This document shows, piece after piece, positions 3,270 through 33,140 of a stretch of DNA of 33,753 nucleotides. The notes under the pieces are model-generated. The model searched no databases. It saw only the letters and a program-made list of their open reading frames with translations, and was not told the DNA's origin. Position numbers and translations under genes: made by a program. Position 1 is the first letter of the stretch, and each line of letters starts with the position of its first letter. Source of the DNA: a virus; IMG/VR virus record IMGVR_UViG_3300031578_000198, positions 1 through 33,753 of that record; one strand, 5' to 3'.

Positions 3270-3833
3270 TTACTCCTCTGTGTTGTGTAGCGACTTAATC
3301 ATTTCGTCCACTATGCGGGACCCGCGTTCTCGTTCCATCGACGACATGCGTCGTTCGATTGCTTCGATTCGATTCAGGAGGGTGTAGTCCGTCTCAGCGT
3401 CAACGTACATGCGCCCCCCGGCCAATGCTTTGGCATCCATCGGGATTGTGACAAGAGACAATTCGATCAATTCGGCCCTGATCTCATTCCCCTTGAGTCT
3501 GCTGATCTCTCGAAAGGAGACCGATACGCCGCGCAAATGTCCTTCGAGGTAATTCTGTTTGCGGATGCGAAATGCTTCGGGCAAATGGTCGTCGGGAAGG
3601 AACTGGATATCCCCATGCAATACCGTGTCGAATTGCGGGAAGGCGTGGCCGAAAATATCAGCGCCCTCATATCCGTGTTGCCAGAGCACAACGTTATTGG
3701 CGCCGTATCTGGTAAGATCCCATTCCCGGACGGCCACGCCGTCCAGCAACACGTCCTGCGTGCTCATCAGGACGTCACGCAACGTCTGTTTTTCGGGATC
3801 GATGCTATCCGTTCGCGTGTAGATTCGGTACAT
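3270..3833 (-). CDS. HK97-family prohead protease
   Basis: Encodes 187 residues. It shows the family hallmarks: a LWQHGYE block with the catalytic-type His at residue 53, a GVSVSF block with candidate nucleophile serines 104/106, and the ELIELSLVTIPMDAKAL block at residues 121-135. Proteases of this herpesvirus-like serine class mature the procapsid by removing the scaffold domain of the capsid protein. The C-terminal third is helical and charged and may contact the scaffold. It lies between the portal and capsid genes, 4 bases before the capsid start. AGAGGAA upstream of ATG 3833 supports the start. The length is normal for the family. Confidence 0.9.
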   Translation of the reverse strand: MYRIYTRTDSIDPEKQTLRDVLMSTQDVLLDGVAVREWDLTRYGANNVVLWQHGYEGADIFGHAFPQFDTVLHGDIQFLPDDHLPEAFRIRKQNYLEGHLRGVSVSFREISRLKGNEIRAELIELSLVTIPMDAKALAGGRMYVDAETDYTLLNRIEAIERRMSSMERERGSRIVDEMIKSLHNTEE

Positions 3834-3903
3834 GGTGCATTCCTCTAATCTGTCCGTTGATCCGTTCGGGCAGCGCGCCCGGCGTAATCATCCGGTTTTG
3901 ACT

Positions 3904-3927
3904 GCCGGGGATTTCATAAGCCCCGGC
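3904..3927 (-). other. Strong hairpin in the portal-protease gap
   Basis: GCCGGGG (3904-3910) and CCCCGGC (3921-3927) form a perfect 7-bp stem with a 10-base loop, in the 111-base gap between the portal stop and the protease start. There is no T-run after it on the minus strand, so it is not a standard intrinsic terminator. It may mark an mRNA processing or attenuation point within the late operon. Function is inferred only from the structure. Confidence 0.45.
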
Positions 3928-3944
3928 GGTTTTCCTTGTGTCCT

Positions 3945-6113
3945 TTAAGCGGCGAGTTCGCCGACGCCGAGCACGCATAAGCAGTTCACCCTTTCGTCGG
4001 CGGACAGGGATGCGTCCCCCGGATATTGCCCGCCGTTGGAAAATGATTCGTCTATGCCGACCGTCTCGCCGTTCATCGCGGCATGGGACGGCCTGGGGTT
4101 TCCACTGGTGTTGATCCATTCCTTTGTTTTGACCGCGCCCGATTCGCGGAAGCCCGCAAGCGTTGCGTCGCCCGCTATGCCCGTGAGTTCAGTTGTCGCG
4201 ATCTTGAGGGCGCGCGTAAGTTTCGCGCCGTCGCCTTCAAGGATGCCCTGGAACCCGTCGATATCAGCAAGGCCGCGCGCTATCTCGTGCGCGTCTAATC
4301 CCTGTCCAAGGCCGGAGGTTATGACGTCGCGAATATCGTCTTTTAGAGAGGCGAGAGTTTCGTCCACCAGTCCGGCCATGGCATCGACGATCTTAGTAAT
4401 GGACTCTTCCAAGTCGCGCCGATAAACATGCTTGTGACCGTTGCCGCCCGCCAGTACCATCGCGCGCGCGCCGACCGTCTTCAGGGTGGCGTTGTAGTTA
4501 TCCTCCCAGGCGGCGCGCCAGGTGGGTTGAACCGCACTGACCCATCCCGCGCGAACAGTGGGCCAATCCACGAGCCGGTCTACCACGTATTGACCGGACG
4601 CAACCTCGGCCTGTACTTTCCGGGCAAGCGTGTTGAGTTGGGTGGTATGGATCTCGGTGAGGGTTCGTTTGGGATTGACGGCCCGCTCATTCCAGGCGCG
4701 CACCCAGGCCCGGCGCTCCGGGTCCATCCCGCGCACATACTGAATCAGATCCTCCATCCTCTCGGGAACCTCCGGGACCTCTCGGGCGGGGGTCTCCTCA
4801 GGCGGGGTCTCCTCCTTGTTCTCCCCATCGGGTTTCACCGACAGCGCGTTAACGCTGGTCATCGTTCCATCCGGCAAAACAATCAGGCCGGTATTCGTTA
4901 CTATCACGTCCCCGCCTGCAATCGGATGCAGATTCCAGAACGTAGCCCGCGCCTCGTTGATGCTCATAACGTTCTGGGCGCGGCCTTGCGCGAGCGCGCG
5001 TTGCGCAACGGCGGGCGCGGCGTTGCGTTGCGGGGCCGTATCGGCAAACAGTTCCTCATCGTCCGCAAGCCAACCGCGCGCGTGAAAGAACTTCGTGGCC
5101 GCCTTTGCGATCGGTTGCAGGTGCAACACGTCCAATAACATCCAGAACACGACCTCTTGTTTTTCCGCCTGGTTGTATGTGACGCCCTCTGTGCGGCCCT
5201 GGAATACCGGGGGGACCCCGACCATGGCGCTCTGAATCTGTATCTGTTGCTGCGTGAGTCCGGGGTAGTCGGCGTCCTGAGAAGCATGGACGCTCTCGTT
5301 GACTTTCATTGTGCCTTGCGCGACGTACATGCGGTCGACATTTTCCGGGCCGCCCATGATGAGTTTGATTTCGTTTTCGACCTGCTTCTTCTGTACATCG
5401 TCCATCGTCTCTTCGGTGGACAGCCAAAGGCGCAGGCGGGTGCCGAGTTTGAGGGCCTGGTGGTGGAACCGTTGCAACATCTGGTCGAGCCGGAGGCTGG
5501 TTCGCATCGCCTTCGCGGGCGCGATCCCCTGGGAATCCTGGTCCTTGCCGGGGTTCAGCTCCCAGACCGTCATAATCTCTTCGACGGAATAGAGGACCGT
5601 CTCCCCTTTACTCGTCCTGAATTCCCAGCCCGAGATCCAGCGCTTGCGGTCGAGAACGGGTGTCATGTGTTGCGGGTGGGGCAGCCAGATCGTCGTCTCC
5701 TCGCTATCCGCTCCCTCACCCTCAACCAACCAGTGGGCCTTGCCGCAGAGAACCTGATACATGATTGTATAGCCGATGAGTTCATGCTGGGTCCAATGCT
5801 CATTCGGGTTGGCTATCAGCGCGGGGATAGGATGATCGTTGACAATTTCCGTCCGGGTCGTGCCGTCCGATTCGGGTATCCGTCGCCTGACCCGCCAGGG
5901 TACTGCGGAGGCCAGGGCGGCGAGGACCCGGAGGGAACTGTGCATCCAGGGGTGATCCTGGTAAGTGTTGAGCACCCAGTCGTCCGTGAGGGCCGCGTCA
6001 AACGTGACGGTGCTGAAGAGACTGCCACTGGAGCCCCGATCAGGATGTATAACATGGGCCCGGCCTCTAACGGCGTTCCATATCCCGCGCAAACGTGATT
6101 GATTTTCTACCAT
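3945..6113 (-). CDS. Portal protein fused to a MuF-type head morphogenesis domain
   Basis: Encodes 722 residues. Residues ~1-425 match phage portal proteins of the HK97/lambda-like class (WMHSSLRVLAALASAVPWRV, then IMYQVLCGKAHWLVE, MTVWELNPGKDQDSQGIAP, and GVPPVFQGRTEGVTYNQAEK in the clip/wing region). A Pro/Glu linker spans ~428-455. The C-terminal part ends with a typical Mu gpF motif at 666-722: W-x-NTSGNPRPSHAAMNGE, later YPGDASLSADERVNCLC. Portal and MuF proteins are usually separate neighbouring genes, so this is a natural fusion. The portal forms the DNA entry vertex and MuF-type proteins are minor head components. No clear ribosome binding site precedes ATG 6113, and a TATAGT box 8 bases upstream raises the possibility of a near-leaderless transcript. 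Confidence 0.88.
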   Translation of the reverse strand: MVENQSRLRGIWNAVRGRAHVIHPDRGSSGSLFSTVTFDAALTDDWVLNTYQDHPWMHSSLRVLAALASAVPWRVRRRIPESDGTTRTEIVNDHPIPALIANPNEHWTQHELIGYTIMYQVLCGKAHWLVEGEGADSEETTIWLPHPQHMTPVLDRKRWISGWEFRTSKGETVLYSVEEIMTVWELNPGKDQDSQGIAPAKAMRTSLRLDQMLQRFHHQALKLGTRLRLWLSTEETMDDVQKKQVENEIKLIMGGPENVDRMYVAQGTMKVNESVHASQDADYPGLTQQQIQIQSAMVGVPPVFQGRTEGVTYNQAEKQEVVFWMLLDVLHLQPIAKAATKFFHARGWLADDEELFADTAPQRNAAPAVAQRALAQGRAQNVMSINEARATFWNLHPIAGGDVIVTNTGLIVLPDGTMTSVNALSVKPDGENKEETPPEETPAREVPEVPERMEDLIQYVRGMDPERRAWVRAWNERAVNPKRTLTEIHTTQLNTLARKVQAEVASGQYVVDRLVDWPTVRAGWVSAVQPTWRAAWEDNYNATLKTVGARAMVLAGGNGHKHVYRRDLEESITKIVDAMAGLVDETLASLKDDIRDVITSGLGQGLDAHEIARGLADIDGFQGILEGDGAKLTRALKIATTELTGIAGDATLAGFRESGAVKTKEWINTSGNPRPSHAAMNGETVGIDESFSNGGQYPGDASLSADERVNCLCVLGVGELAA

Positions 6114-6239
6114 CGCGCGTAACTATAAGCACAGATCAAGCGTCTAATTAATACTTTTCGCGCATTTTTTGTATTACATGCACCGATTTTGTATAACAGC
6201 TATTCGGCTATTGTTTTGTGGATCGAATAGGTTTACATT
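6114..6239. promoter_or_regulatory. Divergent late promoter region between portal and terminase
   Basis: This AT-rich 126-base gap separates two genes transcribed away from each other. It holds two near-identical 12-mers, TTTTGTATTACA (6167-6178) and TTTTGTATAACA (6187-6198), exactly 20 bases apart, as expected for an activator or repressor bound on one face of the helix. TATAGT (reverse complement at 6122-6127) could be the -10 box for the portal transcript. No good -35 box accompanies it, which fits a promoter that needs an activator. The exact start sites are not determined. Confidence 0.5.
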
Positions 6240-7961
6240 ATGAGCATGGGCACGCACGGCGACATGTGGATGACTCCCCTGGAATTGGCAAAAGAGTATA
6301 ACGTCAGTCATGCCACGATATACAAGTGGCTGAAGCTCGGCGGGTGGAAGCGGGTCGGCCAGCGCTGGCTGATTCGCAAGGGGGACCTTGATCGGTTTCT
6401 ACGCGACGGGGAGCGGGCCTTCCGGGTGAAAGAAGAAGACGATGCCTCGCTGGCCTCGCTGGAGGGGCTGGACATATTGCGCTCCGGGGCGCGGTTTGAT
6501 TTCCTGGACGCCACGCAGAAGACTTTCTACGTACATCGGCGGGGTGAGCCGGCGGCGGTTCCGATCTTATGGGAACCCTGGCAGATCGACCACTGGATCA
6601 AGCCGACGTATTACAACGTGGATGAGCGGGGGCAACGCAACAAGCGGCTGATCATAATCAGCGTCCCGGCCAAGGAGGGCAAGACCACCATGGCCGCCGC
6701 GGCCGTCTGGTACGACCTGATGTTCGATTGGGACACCTCCCCCGAGATCTACTCATGCGCCGGGACGAAAGACCAGGCGGCGCTCGTTTTCAAGAACGTC
6801 AAAAATGCGATCATCTCCTCTCCGCTCGCTCAGGCCATGCGAAAGGAAAAGCAACTCAAAATTTACAAAAACGCAATCGAGGTCGACACGCCTACCCGCG
6901 CGGGGGTCTACCGGGTCCTCGCCCGTGAAGCCTTCTCCGCCCACGGCCTCAATCCGACGCTGACCGTGTATGACGAAATGTGGAATCAGCCCGACGCGGA
7001 AATGTGGGAGGCCACGAAAGAGAGTCCCGCCCGGACAGAACCGCTCACCATGGTCATCTCCTACGCTGGGTTCGGCTGGCAAAAAGTGAAGGGGAACGTC
7101 TGGTACGATCTCTGGCAGCGGGGCATTGCCTGGCAGGATGATCCCGACCTGGACCGCGACCTCCACTTTTATCACTCCAACGTAAACCGGGCCTCCTGGA
7201 AACAGGACCGCGCCGGCAACATCGACGCCTACCTCGAACGCATGAAGCGCTATTTTACGACCGATGCCCAATACCGCCGGCTGGTTCTCAACGAGTGGGT
7301 GGACTCCGAAGACAGCGCTCTCACCGAGGCCGACATCAATGCCATATTCCTGCGCGGCAAGGAGCTCGGATTCCAAGAGACCTGGGTGCCCCAGGCCGGT
7401 TGGCGTTATACCATCACCCTCGATCTCGGGTTGACCGGGGACGCGACGGTCGCCGCCGTCTTCGGCCGCAAGGTCGGCAGCGACCTGATCCGCATCTGCA
7501 ACATGCGGAAATTCGAGAAGCGCCGCACCGGCCTCCAGCGTGAGGTCGATATCGACAGCGTGGAAGACTGGCTGGTCAACGCCTGGAAAATCTTCGGCGG
7601 CAGTGTCTGGGCCGACCCCGATCAGTTCAAGGGCTCCATCCAGCGCCTTACCAAACGCGGCTTGCCCATCAAAGCCTGGAACTTCGTCGGGCCGAATATC
7701 AACCGCGCCACCAAAATTCTCGTCGGCGCAATCCGCGAACGTCAGATCGCCTCCTACCCCATCCCCGCCCTCGAAGCCGAACTCCGAAGCGCCCGTATTG
7801 TCTCCCGCTCCTACGGTATGCGCCTGGAGGTCCCCCGTATCCGATCCACCCGAGCCCACGAAGGCCAACACGGGGATCACCTCACCACCCTCTGTATCGG
7901 CGCCGATGTCCTCCTCGCCACCAACATCGCCCCACCCTCCATCTGGTCTATCTCCTTGTAA
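6240..7961 (+). CDS. Large terminase with an N-terminal helix-turn-helix domain
   Basis: Encodes 573 residues. Residues 11-55 (MTPLELAKEYNVSHATIYKW ... GDLDRFL) form a MerR/excisionase-type helix-turn-helix of the HTH_17 kind. Then comes a terminase motor: Walker A near 142-149 (VPAKEGKT), Walker B LTVYDE at 241-246, and coupling motif TMVISYAG near 270. An RNase H-like nuclease follows, with acidic residues at D395 (TITLDLG), D459 (WADPDQF) and D546 (HGDHLTT). It packages DNA into proheads and cuts it. No separate small terminase is seen, so the HTH may supply DNA recognition; that is inference. It is the only late gene on the plus strand. ATG 6240 has a weak RBS (AATAGG); ATG 6246 is an alternative. 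Confidence 0.9.
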   Translation: MSMGTHGDMWMTPLELAKEYNVSHATIYKWLKLGGWKRVGQRWLIRKGDLDRFLRDGERAFRVKEEDDASLASLEGLDILRSGARFDFLDATQKTFYVHRRGEPAAVPILWEPWQIDHWIKPTYYNVDERGQRNKRLIIISVPAKEGKTTMAAAAVWYDLMFDWDTSPEIYSCAGTKDQAALVFKNVKNAIISSPLAQAMRKEKQLKIYKNAIEVDTPTRAGVYRVLAREAFSAHGLNPTLTVYDEMWNQPDAEMWEATKESPARTEPLTMVISYAGFGWQKVKGNVWYDLWQRGIAWQDDPDLDRDLHFYHSNVNRASWKQDRAGNIDAYLERMKRYFTTDAQYRRLVLNEWVDSEDSALTEADINAIFLRGKELGFQETWVPQAGWRYTITLDLGLTGDATVAAVFGRKVGSDLIRICNMRKFEKRRTGLQREVDIDSVEDWLVNAWKIFGGSVWADPDQFKGSIQRLTKRGLPIKAWNFVGPNINRATKILVGAIRERQIASYPIPALEAELRSARIVSRSYGMRLEVPRIRSTRAHEGQHGDHLTTLCIGADVLLATNIAPPSIWSISL

Positions 7962-8319
7962 ATATAAATACATTGACTCTATATTTTGAATCGGGACCTT
8001 GCCTTCATTCTCCACAATGCCCCTAGAATCTCAGGGACCCCATCCATGCTGCGGCAGAATGAAACGAAACCCCTCAGGGGTATCAATCCATGCCCCCACC
8101 CGCCCAATCTCCACAACAACCCCGCGGATACGTGATTCATAGGCTTACAGTAATATACCTTGACTCTGTATTTTATATGCGTATGACACAAGACCTGCTT
8201 TTTCGGGAGTGTGACCTTTTGGGTCCCATCCCCCAGGGGGGGTATGGTGCCCGTATCCGGGCTGATTCTCGGTCTGATAGTAGCTCCTGAGTAGCACGTG
8301 AGATACAGTGCTCTCCCTA

Positions 8320-8346
8320 TTGTAATCATAACTCTAGTGATTACAA
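8320..8346. repeat. Perfect inverted repeat, 9-bp arms
   Basis: TTGTAATCA (8320-8328) and TGATTACAA (8338-8346) are perfect inverted arms around a 9-base centre. The arm centres are 18 bases apart, close to two helical turns, which suits a dimeric DNA-binding protein better than an RNA hairpin. There is no T-run after it. A DNA-binding site is inferred. Confidence 0.6.
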
Positions 8347-8415
8347 GATCTTACGGTATACTCTAATACTACTGACCCTATGATCACTAATCAGATGCTC
8401 GCAGATATGTACTTC

Positions 8416-8438
8416 TTATCAATAATGGTTATTGATAA
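8416..8438. repeat. Perfect inverted repeat, 10-bp arms and 3-base centre
   Basis: TTATCAATAA (8416-8425) and TTATTGATAA (8429-8438) are perfect inverted arms around TGG. Its high AT content and near-perfect dyad symmetry suggest an operator, or a nicking or packaging signal, rather than a terminator. It lies 70 bases from the preceding palindrome. Confidence 0.6.
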
Positions 8439-8648
8439 CTCTCAAGGACAAATAAGCTCTACTATGTCCTCAGTATGATCCTGTCGGTTGAGTGTTGAGG
8501 TTATAAAGGTCCTTACATCATATCCTTGAGATGTGTCTACTATGTAGTTATGTAAAGAGATAGAGTATTACATATAGTATATAATCCCCTCTATCCCATC
8601 CCCCCCTATAGTCCCCCCCTTCCCTTTCTCCCCTGGGGGACAAGGGGT

Positions 8649-24479: not shown

Positions 24480-24665
24480 TTACTCCTTTGGGGTCCGATA
24501 GGCGTTCAGGACTCCATCAGGCGTGGCAATCCGCAGGGCCCGTCTCACCACTTCAGATGGTGTCAGACCCGTTTCCTTCACCAGTCTGATAAGCGCCTTG
24601 GTTTCATCTTTGATTCCATCGCTCAGTCTTACGCCGACGCGGCCGTGCATTTCCACTGTTCTCAT
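24480..24665 (-). CDS. Ribbon-helix-helix repressor-like protein
   Basis: Encodes 61 residues from ATG 24665 (AGGGGGACACA upstream; the longer GTG start lacks an RBS). The strand HGRVGVRLSD is followed by IKDETKALIRLVKETG and LTPSEVVRRALRIA, a textbook RHH with its TPSE turn. It is the first gene of the early operon, directly downstream of its promoter, as expected for a Cro- or Arc-like autoregulator. Confidence 0.75.
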   Translation of the reverse strand: MRTVEMHGRVGVRLSDGIKDETKALIRLVKETGLTPSEVVRRALRIATPDGVLNAYRTPKE

Positions 24666-24693
24666 TGTGTCCCCCTGTTCCATCGTGTAGCAC

Positions 24694-24723
24694 ACAATAT
24701 CCCCCCGTGGAATGGTATGTCAA
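24694..24723 (-). promoter_or_regulatory. Early operon promoter (minus strand)
   Basis: On the minus strand TTGACA (24718-24723) is followed 18 bases later by TATTGT (24694-24699), a good sigma70-type match. The -10 box overlaps the palindrome GTGT-AGC-ACAC (24685-24695), a likely operator. The transcript would begin near 24687 and start with the RHH gene. Confidence 0.7.
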
Positions 24724-27401: not shown

Positions 27402-27478
27402 TCTCTTTCCCCTTTCGTTTCGGTCTAACCGACCGGACCGGCGCCCCTCCCGGAGGGGCGCCGGGCTGGGCGGTTAGA

Positions 27479-28517: not shown

Positions 28518-28552
28518 GGTCTCTTTTCTCCCTTCCCTTGTCTCTGCCTATA

Positions 28553-28580
28553 ATTATATCCATAACATTTTATTTGTCAA
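28553..28580 (-). promoter_or_regulatory. Consensus sigma70 promoter for the ParB-like operon
   Basis: On the minus strand TTGACA (28575-28580), a 16-base spacer and TATAAT (28553-28558) are both perfect consensus boxes. The ParB-like start lies 36 bases downstream. Such strength implies repression or high expression, perhaps in lysogens. Confidence 0.85.
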
Positions 28581-28831
28581 GAGGGTATTTTTCAATCTCC
28601 CGTCACTTTTTCCATAAACCTAGATATTTGAGGGAGTTGCGGACTATAAATATTTAGAGTCGGGGACCCGGACCCCCCTTTTTCATGCACGGGTGCACAT
28701 TTGTGCAGGTATCATCCCGGTGAGTCCGACAAAATGCTTGACCCCCTTATTAACGGAAACAGCCCAAAACGATAATAACGGAATCCTTATTATCCGTTAC
28801 GATACTATGGGGCGGTGCAAATCATAAACGA
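28581..28831. other. Non-coding control region with several palindromes
   Basis: No gene is seen in the ~250 bases upstream of the ParB operon promoter. Visible sites are a 20-base palindrome with one mismatch (GACT-A-TAAATATTTA-G-AGTC, 28642-28661), alternating half-sites TGCAC-GG-GTGCAC-ATTT-GTGCA (28686-28707), and nested inverted repeats around TAACGGA / TCCGTTA (28776-28799). They look like operators for the RHH proteins of this element. Confidence 0.55.
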
Positions 28832-28863
28832 CAAAAAGAGACCCGGCGGGAGGGAGCCGGGTC
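28832..28863 (-). terminator. Intrinsic terminator of the late operon
   Basis: GACCCGGC (28840-28847) and GCCGGGTC (28856-28863) form a perfect 8-bp stem with an 8-base loop. On the minus strand TCTTTTTG follows at once (28832-28838). It lies 28 bases after the last late gene, so it ends the structural/lysis transcript. Confidence 0.85.
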
Positions 28864-28891
28864 AAACATCGGAAAGGAAAGGAGGTAAGTT

Positions 28892-29086
28892 CTATCCGTG
28901 CATCGCTTCCTTTTCCGCCTGGCACTTCGCCCAGTCCTCGGCCTCGCCAACGGCTACGCGCGCCGCGTCCTCGGGGGTCGAGCCGGAGTCGATCAACATT
29001 CCGATCTTGGCGAACACCCAGGTCATCACCGGGGCGCCGAATTTGACTACGAGGGTCGTTATCATTCCTACGGTTGCGGGATCCAT
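28892..29086 (-). CDS. Small hypothetical protein at the end of the late operon
   Basis: Encodes 64 residues, with AAGGAG before ATG 29086. A moderately hydrophobic segment (VGMITTLVVKFGAPVMTWVF) may be membrane-associated; an acidic Ala-rich helix (TPEDAARVAVGEAEDWAKCQ) follows. It lies after the lipoprotein and holin-like genes, so a lysis accessory role is possible. Confidence 0.6.
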   Translation of the reverse strand: MDPATVGMITTLVVKFGAPVMTWVFAKIGMLIDSGSTPEDAARVAVGEAEDWAKCQAEKEAMHG

Positions 29087-29087
29087 A

Positions 29088-29717
29088 TCAGTTCTCCTTC
29101 CTGACGACCGGCGGGGTCGCCGGGATCGTCACTTTTCCATCCGCGTCGATCTGGTATGTTTGGACGTTTGGCACGAGCGTTCCGCCGATCAGATAGAGGG
29201 TTTCGTTTGTGAGATCGTCCACTATCATCGGGTCGGGAATAGTATCCAACGTCGTCCCCTTATATGGCATGATGGTTGTTGTTGGCATCGTCTTTCCCGG
29301 AGCCGGTCCCGCGACCGCGGCCATGCCGTGATAGATCCCCCGGACAAACCAGCCGAGCCATTCCCGATCCTCGGCGGACGTGGCGCCCTCGGCGAGTATC
29401 CCCACGGCTACCTCAGCCGCGGCCCGCAGATCCCCGTCTACCCCGGCGACCACGGCCTGAATCAGGGCCTCGTCCGTAGGGGTCAGTGTATTCGTGAGTG
29501 TGAGTTTCTCGGCCACGGCATATATCCGGTCGGCCGCCGCGACCTGGGCCTCTCGGGAGTCCAGGGAGTAGGCGTAGAACGCACCCACCGCGTACCCGGC
29601 CCCCGAGACAATGGCCTGCTGATCCCGGATCTGTTGATCCGTCATGTTCTTCGCGCGCATACTCGCGCACCCCGCGAGCAGGGCGATTGCGAGTACTGCT
29701 ACTGTGATTTTCTTCAT
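29088..29717 (-). CDS. Lipoprotein in the lysis-like cluster
   Basis: Encodes 209 residues from ATG 29717; a longer frame into the holin-like gene is rejected because the ATG begins a perfect lipoprotein signal (KKITVAVLAIALLAGC, lipobox Cys17). The mature part is helical and Ala-rich (REAQVAAADRIYAVAEKLTL; AAAEVAVGILAEGATSAEDR), then extended with Pro/Thr. It might be an outer-membrane spanin-like component, but it is much longer than typical spanins. The start overlaps the upstream stop as ATGA. Confidence 0.7.
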   Translation of the reverse strand: MKKITVAVLAIALLAGCASMRAKNMTDQQIRDQQAIVSGAGYAVGAFYAYSLDSREAQVAAADRIYAVAEKLTLTNTLTPTDEALIQAVVAGVDGDLRAAAEVAVGILAEGATSAEDREWLGWFVRGIYHGMAAVAGPAPGKTMPTTTIMPYKGTTLDTIPDPMIVDDLTNETLYLIGGTLVPNVQTYQIDADGKVTIPATPPVVRKEN

Positions 29718-30010
29718 GGTGCATCCGATCCTTTCTCCGTGGGTTTCGGCCACGGTTCGCCGTTCGGTTGAGTTCCCGCCGGGAGTTTCGGCGTGACCAT
29801 GATCTCGGCTTCGCCGTTCCCGATGGGTTTCGAGGTTATCAGTCGCAGAACAATGTTTCCGATCCCGTGGAAAAACAGTAGCCACGGGAGGATCTGCCCG
29901 GAGATACCAAGGTCCGTAGCCATACTAATGGCCAGCGCTATTGACTCAACGACCATTACCACGAGGTTGAATCTGATGGTGTTGCTTTGATACCACCGTT
30001 TCGTTTCCAT
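29714..30010 (-). CDS. Holin-like two-span membrane protein
   Basis: Encodes 98 residues, with AAAGGATAACG before ATG 30010. Two hydrophobic segments (NLVVMVVESIALAISMA; GQILPWLLFFHGIGNIVLRL) and the ending LITSKPI match a common family of phage small membrane proteins annotated as holin-like (W-x-SNTIxFN ... NIVLRxxTxKPI). The C-terminal tail is polar and Pro-rich. It lies beside a lipoprotein and a coiled-coil membrane protein, in keeping with lysis, although no endolysin was recognised. Confidence 0.68.
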   Translation of the reverse strand: METKRWYQSNTIRFNLVVMVVESIALAISMATDLGISGQILPWLLFFHGIGNIVLRLITSKPIGNGEAEIMVTPKLPAGTQPNGEPWPKPTEKGSDAP

Positions 30011-30052
30011 CTCGTTATCCTTTCAACGTGTAAGTATTTCTTACAAGTTCGC

Positions 30053-30352
30053 TCATCTTGCCCTATCCTTTCCCATCAAGACCTTGAGCGTCGTTATGTC
30101 CACACGCAGTTCCTTCATTTCCACTGTCATATCTTTTTGTGCGCTTTCGATCCTCCCCAACTGCTCGTAGAGCGACTTTTGCTCGACCTCACGGACGGCT
30201 GTAATCGTTGCGGCCTGGACTGCGATCTTTGTGTCAATCCGCGGTTCCAGGAACGTTACCCAGATCAGGGCGAGAATTGCAGCCCCGCTGAGTCCGAATA
30301 CTGTGGTCAGCCGCCGTCCGTTACCGTTTGGTTTTGTGGTTTCGTTTGCCAT
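30053..30352 (-). CDS. Coiled-coil single-span membrane protein
   Basis: Encodes 99 residues from ATG 30352, with CGGAGAAAAC upstream. A hydrophobic span (VFGLSGAAILALIWVTFL) is followed by a long coiled coil (REVEQKSLYEQLGRIESAQK, DMTVEMKELRVDITTLKVLM). The layout is like inner-membrane spanins or XhlA-type lysis accessory proteins. A small TGTAAG/CTTACA hairpin (30029-30045) lies in the gap after it. Confidence 0.65.
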   Translation of the reverse strand: MANETTKPNGNGRRLTTVFGLSGAAILALIWVTFLEPRIDTKIAVQAATITAVREVEQKSLYEQLGRIESAQKDMTVEMKELRVDITTLKVLMGKDRAR

Positions 30353-30381
30353 AAGTTTTCTCCGTTTCAGCGGATCAGCAT

Positions 30382-32181
30382 TCAGCCGCCGCTTTTGGTT
30401 TTCTCCAGTGCCGCCACCCGCTTCTGGAGGTCGTCGATTAGGATTGCCTGCGCGTCGAGTTGCTCCTGTTGCTTCCTGTTCTGCTCCCACAAGATCGGGA
30501 TCAATTTGAGCGGCCTGATCGTCTTGAGTGTGCGCTCCTCTGTGTCCCACACCCAGCGCTCCTCGATAGTCGTTTCGCCCGTTGCGTTGGTGATCTCCAC
30601 GGTCTGTGTTGCGCCGGTTGTCAGCGTAGCCGTGTATGTGGATTCGTGGACCGCGTCCGGGAGAACCGCCTCCATCTCCTGGGCGATAAATCCGGTTTGC
30701 CTGACCTCGGGGATTTCTTTTCGCTCAAAGTCTCGGACTTTCAGGCTCTTGAGTATGCCCACCGAATCCTTCGCGGTATCCACGATGTTCTGCTTGAGGT
30801 TGATATCGCAAGCCTGCTCGATCTCCAGCGTTCCGTCATCGTTCGTGATATACCCGGCCACGGTCGAGTTGTCCCCGGCGAGGAACGTTATCATGTAGTT
30901 GTCCCCCGCCTCGTTGTCGGCCCCGGCGGCGATTGCTATTCCCCAGCGGTTGGCGTGATTACCATCGTTGAAAAACCGCCCTACGTAATTGCTCGCCTCA
31001 TCTTCGCGCACATCAAGTCGCGCCGTAGGTGCCGCTACGTTGATCCCCACGTCCCCATCGTATTCGAGTATGAGTTGATTCGCGTTCTCGGCGCTTGCTG
31101 AATAAGTCGCAAACACTAAAGCGGTCGGGACATACGTTGACGCATCTCCGTTCTGCGTGGCGCTGATGTAGGCTCCGAAGTCCTTGTTGCCACCTGAATC
31201 AACGCCATAAAACTGGAGTCGACCAAGCAGAGTCCAGTTTGTCGTTGTGGTATTTGTTCCTACTGTATCACTAAGCGAGTGGAACATCTCAAAAAACGCA
31301 CCGCTGGCAATTAGGTCATCATAGCTTCTACATGCGAACGTTGCTGTTGAATTCGATCTGGCAGCTATGAACGCCGCTGACGACTGCACAATCCCATTGA
31401 CATCTAGCGCCTGAGTCGGTGCCGTCATGCCCGGCCCGATCCCCACTTGCCCGCCGTCCTCAACCCATACACCGATAACACCATCCTTGTCGTGCAATCC
31501 GATCCCCGTGGCATCCACCGCCGTCAGCGCCCCGTCACAACTGGAACCCGTAAGGGTAAGGGCGTTCGGGACATAAGCATCCGTGAGCGCTCCAGTCGTT
31601 GGCGATGCGCCGGTGTGACATAGGACTGTCTCGTAGTCTACCCCGCCCTCCGTTGCACCGATGGCACCGGTTCCATTACCGTACAGGACACCGTACTGCC
31701 CAAACACCGCCGCACCGGTCCCGCCCTCGTTCACCGCCCAGGGGTTCGCCGTGTTCACCCAGTTAGAGGTTATTGTCTCCGCCTGGTTGAGCATCCCGAT
31801 CTGTGCAGTATCCGAGAGATGCGTTGAGGCAATCGGCGTAGCCGCCACGCGATATCCGGACGCGCAATCCACCAGCCCGTTCGAGTACAGCGTGTCCGTC
31901 GCGGGTTCGTACATCGTCCAGCCCGGCCAGATGGTCTTGTGATCCGCACTCTGCGTTCCCTCCATGAATATGTGCCCCTCGTGGAGGTAGACGTTCTCAA
32001 ACCGCGGTATGGCGTATGTTGCTACCGCGCCCGTGGGCGTGGGCGTAGGCGTCACCGTTGGTGTCTTCGTGGGCGTATGCGTATGCGTCGGCGTGTTGGT
32101 GAGCGTGGGCGTAGCGGTATCTTGCGCGAACGCCGCGCTTGTAAGCAGTAGTATCGAGAGTATCAGTAGTGTGCGTTTCAT
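30382..32181 (-). CDS. Exported fibre protein with S74 (intramolecular chaperone) domain
   Basis: Encodes 599 residues from ATG 32181, which overlaps the upstream stop as ATGA and has AGAGGA upstream. Residues 1-20 form a Sec signal peptide (LLILSILLLTSAAFA), followed by a TPT-rich stalk (~21-50). The long middle is beta-fibre-like with Gly/Asn repeats. The C-terminal ~140 residues form a peptidase S74/endosialidase chaperone: CDINLKQNIVDTAKDSVGIL, then QTGFIAQEMEAVLPDAV, then a trimeric coiled coil. The usual catalytic Ser of SDxxxK is Cys458, with Lys463 kept. The domain normally trimerises the fibre and cuts itself off. Confidence 0.85.
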   Translation of the reverse strand: MKRTLLILSILLLTSAAFAQDTATPTLTNTPTHTHTPTKTPTVTPTPTPTGAVATYAIPRFENVYLHEGHIFMEGTQSADHKTIWPGWTMYEPATDTLYSNGLVDCASGYRVAATPIASTHLSDTAQIGMLNQAETITSNWVNTANPWAVNEGGTGAAVFGQYGVLYGNGTGAIGATEGGVDYETVLCHTGASPTTGALTDAYVPNALTLTGSSCDGALTAVDATGIGLHDKDGVIGVWVEDGGQVGIGPGMTAPTQALDVNGIVQSSAAFIAARSNSTATFACRSYDDLIASGAFFEMFHSLSDTVGTNTTTTNWTLLGRLQFYGVDSGGNKDFGAYISATQNGDASTYVPTALVFATYSASAENANQLILEYDGDVGINVAAPTARLDVREDEASNYVGRFFNDGNHANRWGIAIAAGADNEAGDNYMITFLAGDNSTVAGYITNDDGTLEIEQACDINLKQNIVDTAKDSVGILKSLKVRDFERKEIPEVRQTGFIAQEMEAVLPDAVHESTYTATLTTGATQTVEITNATGETTIEERWVWDTEERTLKTIRPLKLIPILWEQNRKQQEQLDAQAILIDDLQKRVAALEKTKSGG

Positions 32182-33140
32182 GGTGTGTCCTCTAAGTCGA
32201 TCCCCCATATTGTCGGTACGTAATCCGCCCCGAGTGATACGGCGGAAGCGTCGGTATAATGCTTGTCGCCATCCGGTGCAGCATCATGCCCAAGGATTAA
32301 ATGGTATATGCAGAATGATAGTGGCGTAGTAGACTCGCCGTTTTCATCGAGCCACCCCAATACGCGGATTGTCACATCTTGGATCAATGGACCATCGTAT
32401 GTTGGTGCAAGGGGTGAGACGGCGCCCATCCCTGTTCTGATCGCCGCCACATCGGTGCAATCACCCGTCGACGGAATTATGCCGTCATAAAACCCAAGTC
32501 TAAGAATATGAAGAGGGCCGGGGAAGGGATCGGGATTGAGTATGGTCAAATCCCACAAGAGAGTTTGCAAGTCCCGCTCCACCGCAAACGCTGCATCGGC
32601 ATCCGCATCGGGCACCGCGTCAATCGCCACAAGATCCATGCTGGCCGTGTAGTAGTTGCCGCCCACTAGATAATGGGTATCGAGCAACCGATCCGGACTC
32701 GTATCAATCGAGCAATCGAACAGATCGTCCTCGTTCGAATCCCCGTGGACTTTATAGGATATGTGCCTGTAGAAATCACAGCTCGCCGGTCCGCCGAGAT
32801 AACGCTGAAGATTGTCCCGCATAGTTACATGATCGCTTGTGACGGATGGATCGAATCCCCAATCGGAAATAGCGGGGATACTGAATACCTGAACACGTAT
32901 TCGGTTGATTGCATCGGTGATGTACAGGCCCGGCTCCGGAATGTCATCCCCGGTGATTGTACATCGCAGGGAGATGAGCGTGGGATCGGCCCATTCAGTC
33001 AACGGGTAACCGATGAAAGTCTCCAGAGCATTCAGGTTCGCCATGATGTCAGCCATGTCGTTAGCCATATCCGCAGCAGACGCTATCGCGTCCCATGCCG
33101 CCCCAAGGACCCCGTCATCCGTGTATATCTGCGTTGTCAT
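32178..33140 (-). CDS. Putative virion-associated protein of unknown fold
   Basis: Encodes 320 residues from ATG 33140, coupled to the upstream stop as TGATG. The N-terminal helix (DAIASAADMANDMADIMANL) is followed by a globular beta-rich body with Cys, Trp and Gly (LISLRCTITGDDIPEPGLYI; FYRHISYKVHGD; VTIRVLGWLDENGES). It has no signal peptide. It lies between two fibre-like genes, so it is probably a fibre adaptor or minor structural protein. No family is recognised. Confidence 0.65.
   Translation of the reverse strand: MTTQIYTDDGVLGAAWDAIASAADMANDMADIMANLNALETFIGYPLTEWADPTLISLRCTITGDDIPEPGLYITDAINRIRVQVFSIPAISDWGFDPSVTSDHVTMRDNLQRYLGGPASCDFYRHISYKVHGDSNEDDLFDCSIDTSPDRLLDTHYLVGGNYYTASMDLVAIDAVPDADADAAFAVERDLQTLLWDLTILNPDPFPGPLHILRLGFYDGIIPSTGDCTDVAAIRTGMGAVSPLAPTYDGPLIQDVTIRVLGWLDENGESTTPLSFCIYHLILGHDAAPDGDKHYTDASAVSLGADYVPTIWGIDLEDTP

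Follow-up and report, generated by a model that had tools for sequence, protein, structure and literature searches.

A winged helix-turn-helix at the N-terminus of an HK97-type large terminase: a candidate TerS-like domain acting in cis

The locus described here raises the question of whether a helix-turn-helix (HTH) joined to a large terminase (TerL) might do the work of a small terminase (TerS). Its source is a metagenomic phage, represented by a linear IMG/VR fragment (IMGVR_UViG_3300031578_000198, 33,753 nucleotides, hereafter the window), both ends of which cut open frames. The gene, its parts and the portal gene that diverges from it are as follows.

3945..6113, minus strand: portal protein with a C-terminal Mu gpF-like domain (PF04860, 6.8e-30; PF04233, 1.7e-8)
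6240..7961, plus strand: fused HTH-TerL gene, 573 aa (PF03354, phrog_9, fold match to HK97 and D6E TerL)
6267..6407, plus strand: winged HTH (wHTH) of MerR/excisionase/gpNu1 type, residues 10-56 (PF12728, AlphaFold wHTH)
6411..6479, plus strand: linker, residues 58-80 (pLDDT under 50)
6639..7070, plus strand: TerL ATPase domain, residues 134-277 (PF03354; Walker A PAKEGKT, Walker B D245-E246)
7392..7919, plus strand: RNase H-like nuclease region, about residues 385-560 (D395, D401, D459, D546)

The body of the protein is a complete HK97-type large terminase. PF03354 covers residues 134-277 with an E-value of 9e-20 (71.5 bits against a cut-off of 23.7), the large terminase family phrog_9 matches at 5e-36 in a PHROG scan, and the best fold match of the predicted structure is the HK97 large terminase (E 4e-19), with the D6E TerL matched as well; the nuclease family PF20441 gave no reported match in the Pfam search of the protein. 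Across 48 aligned TerLs, the Walker A residues K145, G147 and K148, the Walker B residues D245 and E246, and the nuclease residues D395, D401, D459 and D546 are all invariant, so the motor appears complete. The ATPase, the RNase H-like nuclease, the catalytic residues and the fold are thus held in common with other TerLs of this type (PF03354; phrog_9; PDB 6z6d), and the difference lies in about 60-70 extra N-terminal residues bearing the wHTH. This estimate follows from the unfused relatives, whose N-termini align near residue 70 of the window's TerL; the HK97-type relatives examined lack the added part and mostly have a P27 TerS upstream.

The initial annotation had placed a MerR/excisionase-type HTH at residues 11-55, and profile searches bear this out: PF12728 (HTH_17) matches residues 10-56 at 2.3e-8, or 34.6 bits against a cut-off of 27, and reaches 1.4e-9 when residues 1-77 are searched in isolation. 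The excisionase-type HTH of TIGR01764 also matches (3.9e-5), at a score under its own cut-off. The structure prediction proposed as a check agrees, with AlphaFold2 giving a winged HTH before the TerL core that spans residues 8-62 and, in the model of residues 1-77, runs helix-helix-two-strand wing-helix with a pLDDT of about 86-89 over residues 11-50.

The HTH codons lie in the same open frame as the TerL body, and GC at the three codon positions is 0.56/0.42/0.77 in the HTH against 0.59/0.44/0.80 in the body. Four ATG codons, at residues 1, 3, 9 and 11, come first in the frame, all of them ahead of the HTH core; further along, a GTG (residue 63) and a TTG (residue 80) are possible secondary starts. 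These features bear on the explanation that the fusion is a chance or assembly product in which the HTH comes from an unrelated gene and has no packaging role. Such a case exists in E. coli e14 YmfN, where an HTH is followed by HK97-type TerL sequence, as in the window's TerL, and the fused case described here is the single one of the HTH_17-TerL kind in this analysis. YmfN, however, carries HTH_36 and a TerL without the start of the ATPase domain; its annotation describes a chimera between a replication protein and a terminase, and this chimeric nature, with the truncated ATPase, led to its being set aside as a precedent. In the window, by contrast, a complete TerL is read in one open frame with the HTH, codon bias does not change between the two domains, and a linker lies between them; moreover, the same type of HTH adjoins terL in related phages. 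A chimera is therefore considered quite improbable.

The statement in the initial annotation that an HTH is not a known part of TerL does not hold, since gpP of phage P2 has an N-terminal HTH (PF06056, residues 12-69). An HTH on a TerL is as such not new, and P2 gpP, which shares this arrangement with the window's TerL, is the precedent. The families differ, P2 combining PF06056 with a Terminase_6N/6C TerL and the window combining HTH_17 with PF03354. The title of COG4626 presumably includes an N-terminal HTH as well. No description of a TerS-TerL or HTH-TerL fusion was found in the literature searched.

P2 also has a separate TerS, gpM, whose gene is on the opposite strand past those for scaffold and capsid. 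The presence of such a gene in the window was a central point. PHROG scans of the larger ORFs gave no convincing match to TerS families, six-frame searches with PF05119, PF07471, phrog_83 and phrog_6299 revealed no convincing TerS, and TerS profiles built for this analysis found no convincing match among the window's ORFs. A 71-aa ORF at 24480-24695 was the best weak TerS candidate and was rejected, since it matched no TerS family and its own matches, themselves weak, were repressor-like. Genes for a tape-measure or tail-tube protein were likewise not recognised in the window, whose sequence breaks off inside open reading frames downstream of the capsid gene. Because both record ends cut open frames, the lack of a recognised terS holds for the fragment only, and the earlier remark that no separate TerS is seen stands for the window.

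Another explanation follows the P2 pattern: the HTH helps TerL to contact DNA, as an accessory domain, and a separate TerS, not adjacent to terL, is encoded in the missing part of the genome. The HTH on gpP, the remote position of gpM and the break of the window downstream of the capsid gene all fit. The window's ATPase, however, is PF03354 and not of the Terminase_6N type, PF06056 scores only 13.6 bits on its HTH against a cut-off of 20.3, and the TerS genes of its nearest relatives lie upstream of terL. An arrangement like that of P2 is accordingly judged rather unlikely.

A known protein to compare with the domain itself is the small terminase of lambda, gpNu1, whose N-terminal wHTH is of the MerR/excisionase type and which the window's wHTH weakly resembles in profile and fold. 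As a dimer, the lambda TerS wHTH binds cosB of cos (PMC4669245). The two differ in that gpNu1 is a separate protein with a C-terminal part of its own, whereas the chain of the window's wHTH runs on into TerL. The gpNu1 family, phrog_57 (E 3.7e-79 on lambda), has its only match in the window at the wHTH region, a weak one of 3.4e-5 and 18 bits, and also matches in all 14 of 14 control genomes; excisionase and DNA-binding families rank above it in the PHROG results for the window's HTH. The gpNu1 sequence itself matches HTH_17 weakly (0.011), BLASTP between the window's HTH and gpNu1 gave no match, and a six-frame search of the window with PF07471 gave none either. Solved TerS domains (6hn7, 7lxs and 1j9i) are among the fold matches of the wHTH with Z 3.7-4.9, level with ordinary MerR regulators. 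HTHs of the MerR/excisionase type are common, and the resemblance to gpNu1 is weak and non-specific.

The domain pair was also sought in other HK97-type TerLs, as had been proposed, and was not found again: no second fused TerL occurred among more than 200 related loci. The first set of relatives gave 0 of 80 with an HTH fusion, two further sets gave none, and the one HTH among 48 TerLs scanned with Pfam was the window's own. Single-sequence scans of viral and genome contigs found no close relatives of the window's TerL and portal; a scan for the PAKEGKT motif returned one distant, unfused TerL; and samples from Planctomycetota and Omnitrophota contained TerL relatives with no fusion. A motif search of viral and genome contigs in which Walker A had to follow an HTH motif likewise found no HTH-TerL fusion, a weak test given how restrictive the pattern is. 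Two sets of apparent hits were discarded, "N-terminal" matches to mycobacteriophage TerLs (H42-45) that proved to lie at the TerL C-terminus and an Agrobacterium phage match that was antisense. HTH fusion thus seems rare among HK97-type TerLs.

The gene neighbourhoods of the relatives provide the main new support for a TerS-like reading, in the form of stand-alone HTH genes beside terL. Among the 84 related TerL loci with at least 900 nt of upstream sequence, iterated profile searches found a P27-type TerS ORF on the upstream side of terL in 79. Four of the five loci without P27 TerS cluster, together with relatives found later, in one part of the TerL tree. Six contigs (L274, L291, L323, L333, L372 and L393) have no P27-type TerS in the available sequence and carry a small HTH_17-type ORF directly downstream of terL, followed in several contigs by scaffold-like and capsid genes. 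Whole-record searches put four of these six HTHs over the Pfam cut-off, and a profile built from the six ranks the N-terminus of the window's TerL first among the window's ORFs (2e-8; the next ORF scores 2.4). A significant stand-alone HTH together with a P27 TerS was found in none of 260 TerL loci, a count that cannot be read as a probability, since some contigs were entered under two ids and the contigs do not represent independent lineages. The window's TerL, placed to group level in the maximum-likelihood tree, sits on a long branch inside a group of 24 rows (support 100/98); this group holds all six of the TerLs that adjoin an HTH gene, eight TerLs accompanied by a P27 TerS and nine that have neither kind of gene. 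These neighbourhoods support replacement of TerS by an HTH beside terL in the relatives, a pattern of co-occurrence that does not by itself show function. The stand-alone genes lie 3′ of terL and the fused domain is N-terminal, so a simple read-through fusion is not indicated.

Several further features of these loci were noted. In L274, a contig of 4.2 kb, the HK97-type TerL and the stand-alone HTH_17 gene are accompanied by a small terminase of phrog_6299 (2241-2654) and a different large terminase, phrog_3717 (3275-4177), which places two terminases side by side. This additional TerS counts against a TerS-like role of the HTH, as do the members of the tree group that have neither a P27 TerS nor an HTH_17. 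A basic N-terminal extension, DPxKRxxQLxNLxxNRxxR, marks the TerLs of L274, L291, L323, L333, L393, L372, L283, L304 and L411; its bearers are TerLs of the group without P27 TerS, it is absent from the other TerLs examined, and it is possibly another DNA-contact segment. In addition, two HTH-adjacent relatives share a similar GC-rich hairpin upstream of terL (L274 240-268, GGCCCGGGGTTACTCTCTGGCCCCGGGCC; L358 3461-3489, GGTCCGGGGTTGCTCCCTGGCCCCGGACC), a possible terminator or packaging element.

Where such a domain might bind can be considered in the two intergenic regions that flank the fused gene.

6114..6239, no strand: AT-rich spacer separating terL from the divergent portal gene; candidate operator or binding site
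7962..8648, no strand: convergent intergenic region with inverted repeats; candidate binding site or terminator region

Just upstream of terL, the spacer holds two near-identical 12-nt direct repeats 20 nt apart, TTTTGTATTACA (6167-6178) and TTTTGTATAACA (6187-6198), and these are the only two copies in the window. The region beyond the 3′ end of the gene, described in the initial annotation as palindrome-rich, does show an excess of inverted repeats, if a modest one: the perfect repeats, with arms of 9 bp at 8320-8346 and of 10 bp at 8416-8438, make two with arms of at least 9 bp where 0.04 are expected, a number reached by 0.5% of shuffles. Terminators are also expected between convergent genes such as those flanking this region, and the inverted repeats at 8320-8438 may have roles other than packaging. 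No inverted-repeat motif is shared between the window and the HTH-adjacent loci. The longest inverted repeat found in the window lies elsewhere, at 27438-27464 (perfect, CCGGCGCCCCTCCCGGAGGGGCGCCGG, 13-bp arms around a 1-nt centre). Other features of the window include putative virion or tail-fibre proteins at 2-1552 and 30382-32208 (minus strand) that start with signal-peptide-like sequences (MKQRMVLLFACVLLFGGVAYA and MKRTLLILSILLLTSAAFA), which is unusual for tail proteins, and about 1.9 kb (28518-30381) with no convincing gene on the neighbours' strand, where the plus-strand ORFs are without a family match.

The direct repeats, confined within the window to the spacer ahead of terL, would also suit an autoregulator, that is, a TerL that adjusts late gene expression by binding the promoter region between the divergent portal and terL genes, and the best matches of the domain are indeed to excisionase and regulator families. 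The stand-alone homologues nevertheless adjoin terL in phages without P27 TerS, some of them inside the terL-to-capsid cluster, which fits packaging better than autoregulation. Autoregulation is for this reason held to be distinctly unlikely.

The explanation preferred here is that the fused wHTH acts as a TerS-like recognition domain in cis. It is given close to an even chance: a TerS-like role draws support from the stand-alone HTH that adjoins terL in six relatives without P27 TerS, and what holds confidence near one half is that the contig is incomplete, that the fusion is known from a single example, that P2 provides a precedent and that HTH matches have low specificity. In the proposed sequence of events, the flexibly tethered wHTH, perhaps in pairs contributed by adjacent TerL subunits, would bind the packaging initiation site, for which there are candidates on either side of terL (direct repeats, 6167-6198; inverted repeats, 8320-8438), and would hold the TerL nuclease there. 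The TerL nuclease would then make the first cut, after which the motor could dock on the portal and package. The fused domain would thereby replace TerS, and the motor may locate its packaging site without the usual helper protein.

The initial annotation had suggested that one chain might both recognise the packaging site and drive translocation and cleavage. The complete TerL and the HTH beside terL in P27-less relatives speak for this suggestion, which the open contig and the coexistence of an HTH-bearing TerL with a TerS in P2 leave partly supported. The broader proposal, in which a single TerL with a gpNu1-like wHTH would recognise the site, cut and pump with no TerS, and the stand-alone wHTH beside terL in related phages would be an unrecognised small terminase, is put forward as tentative, with somewhat less than an even chance. 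The separate oligomers formed by TerS make its cooperation with TerL difficult to study. In a naturally single-chain terminase the stoichiometry would be set, which would allow a test of what part of TerS, apart from a DNA-binding domain, is required. The related phages would in turn offer a candidate small terminase, one to which current family libraries mostly give the label excisionase or DNA-binding protein.
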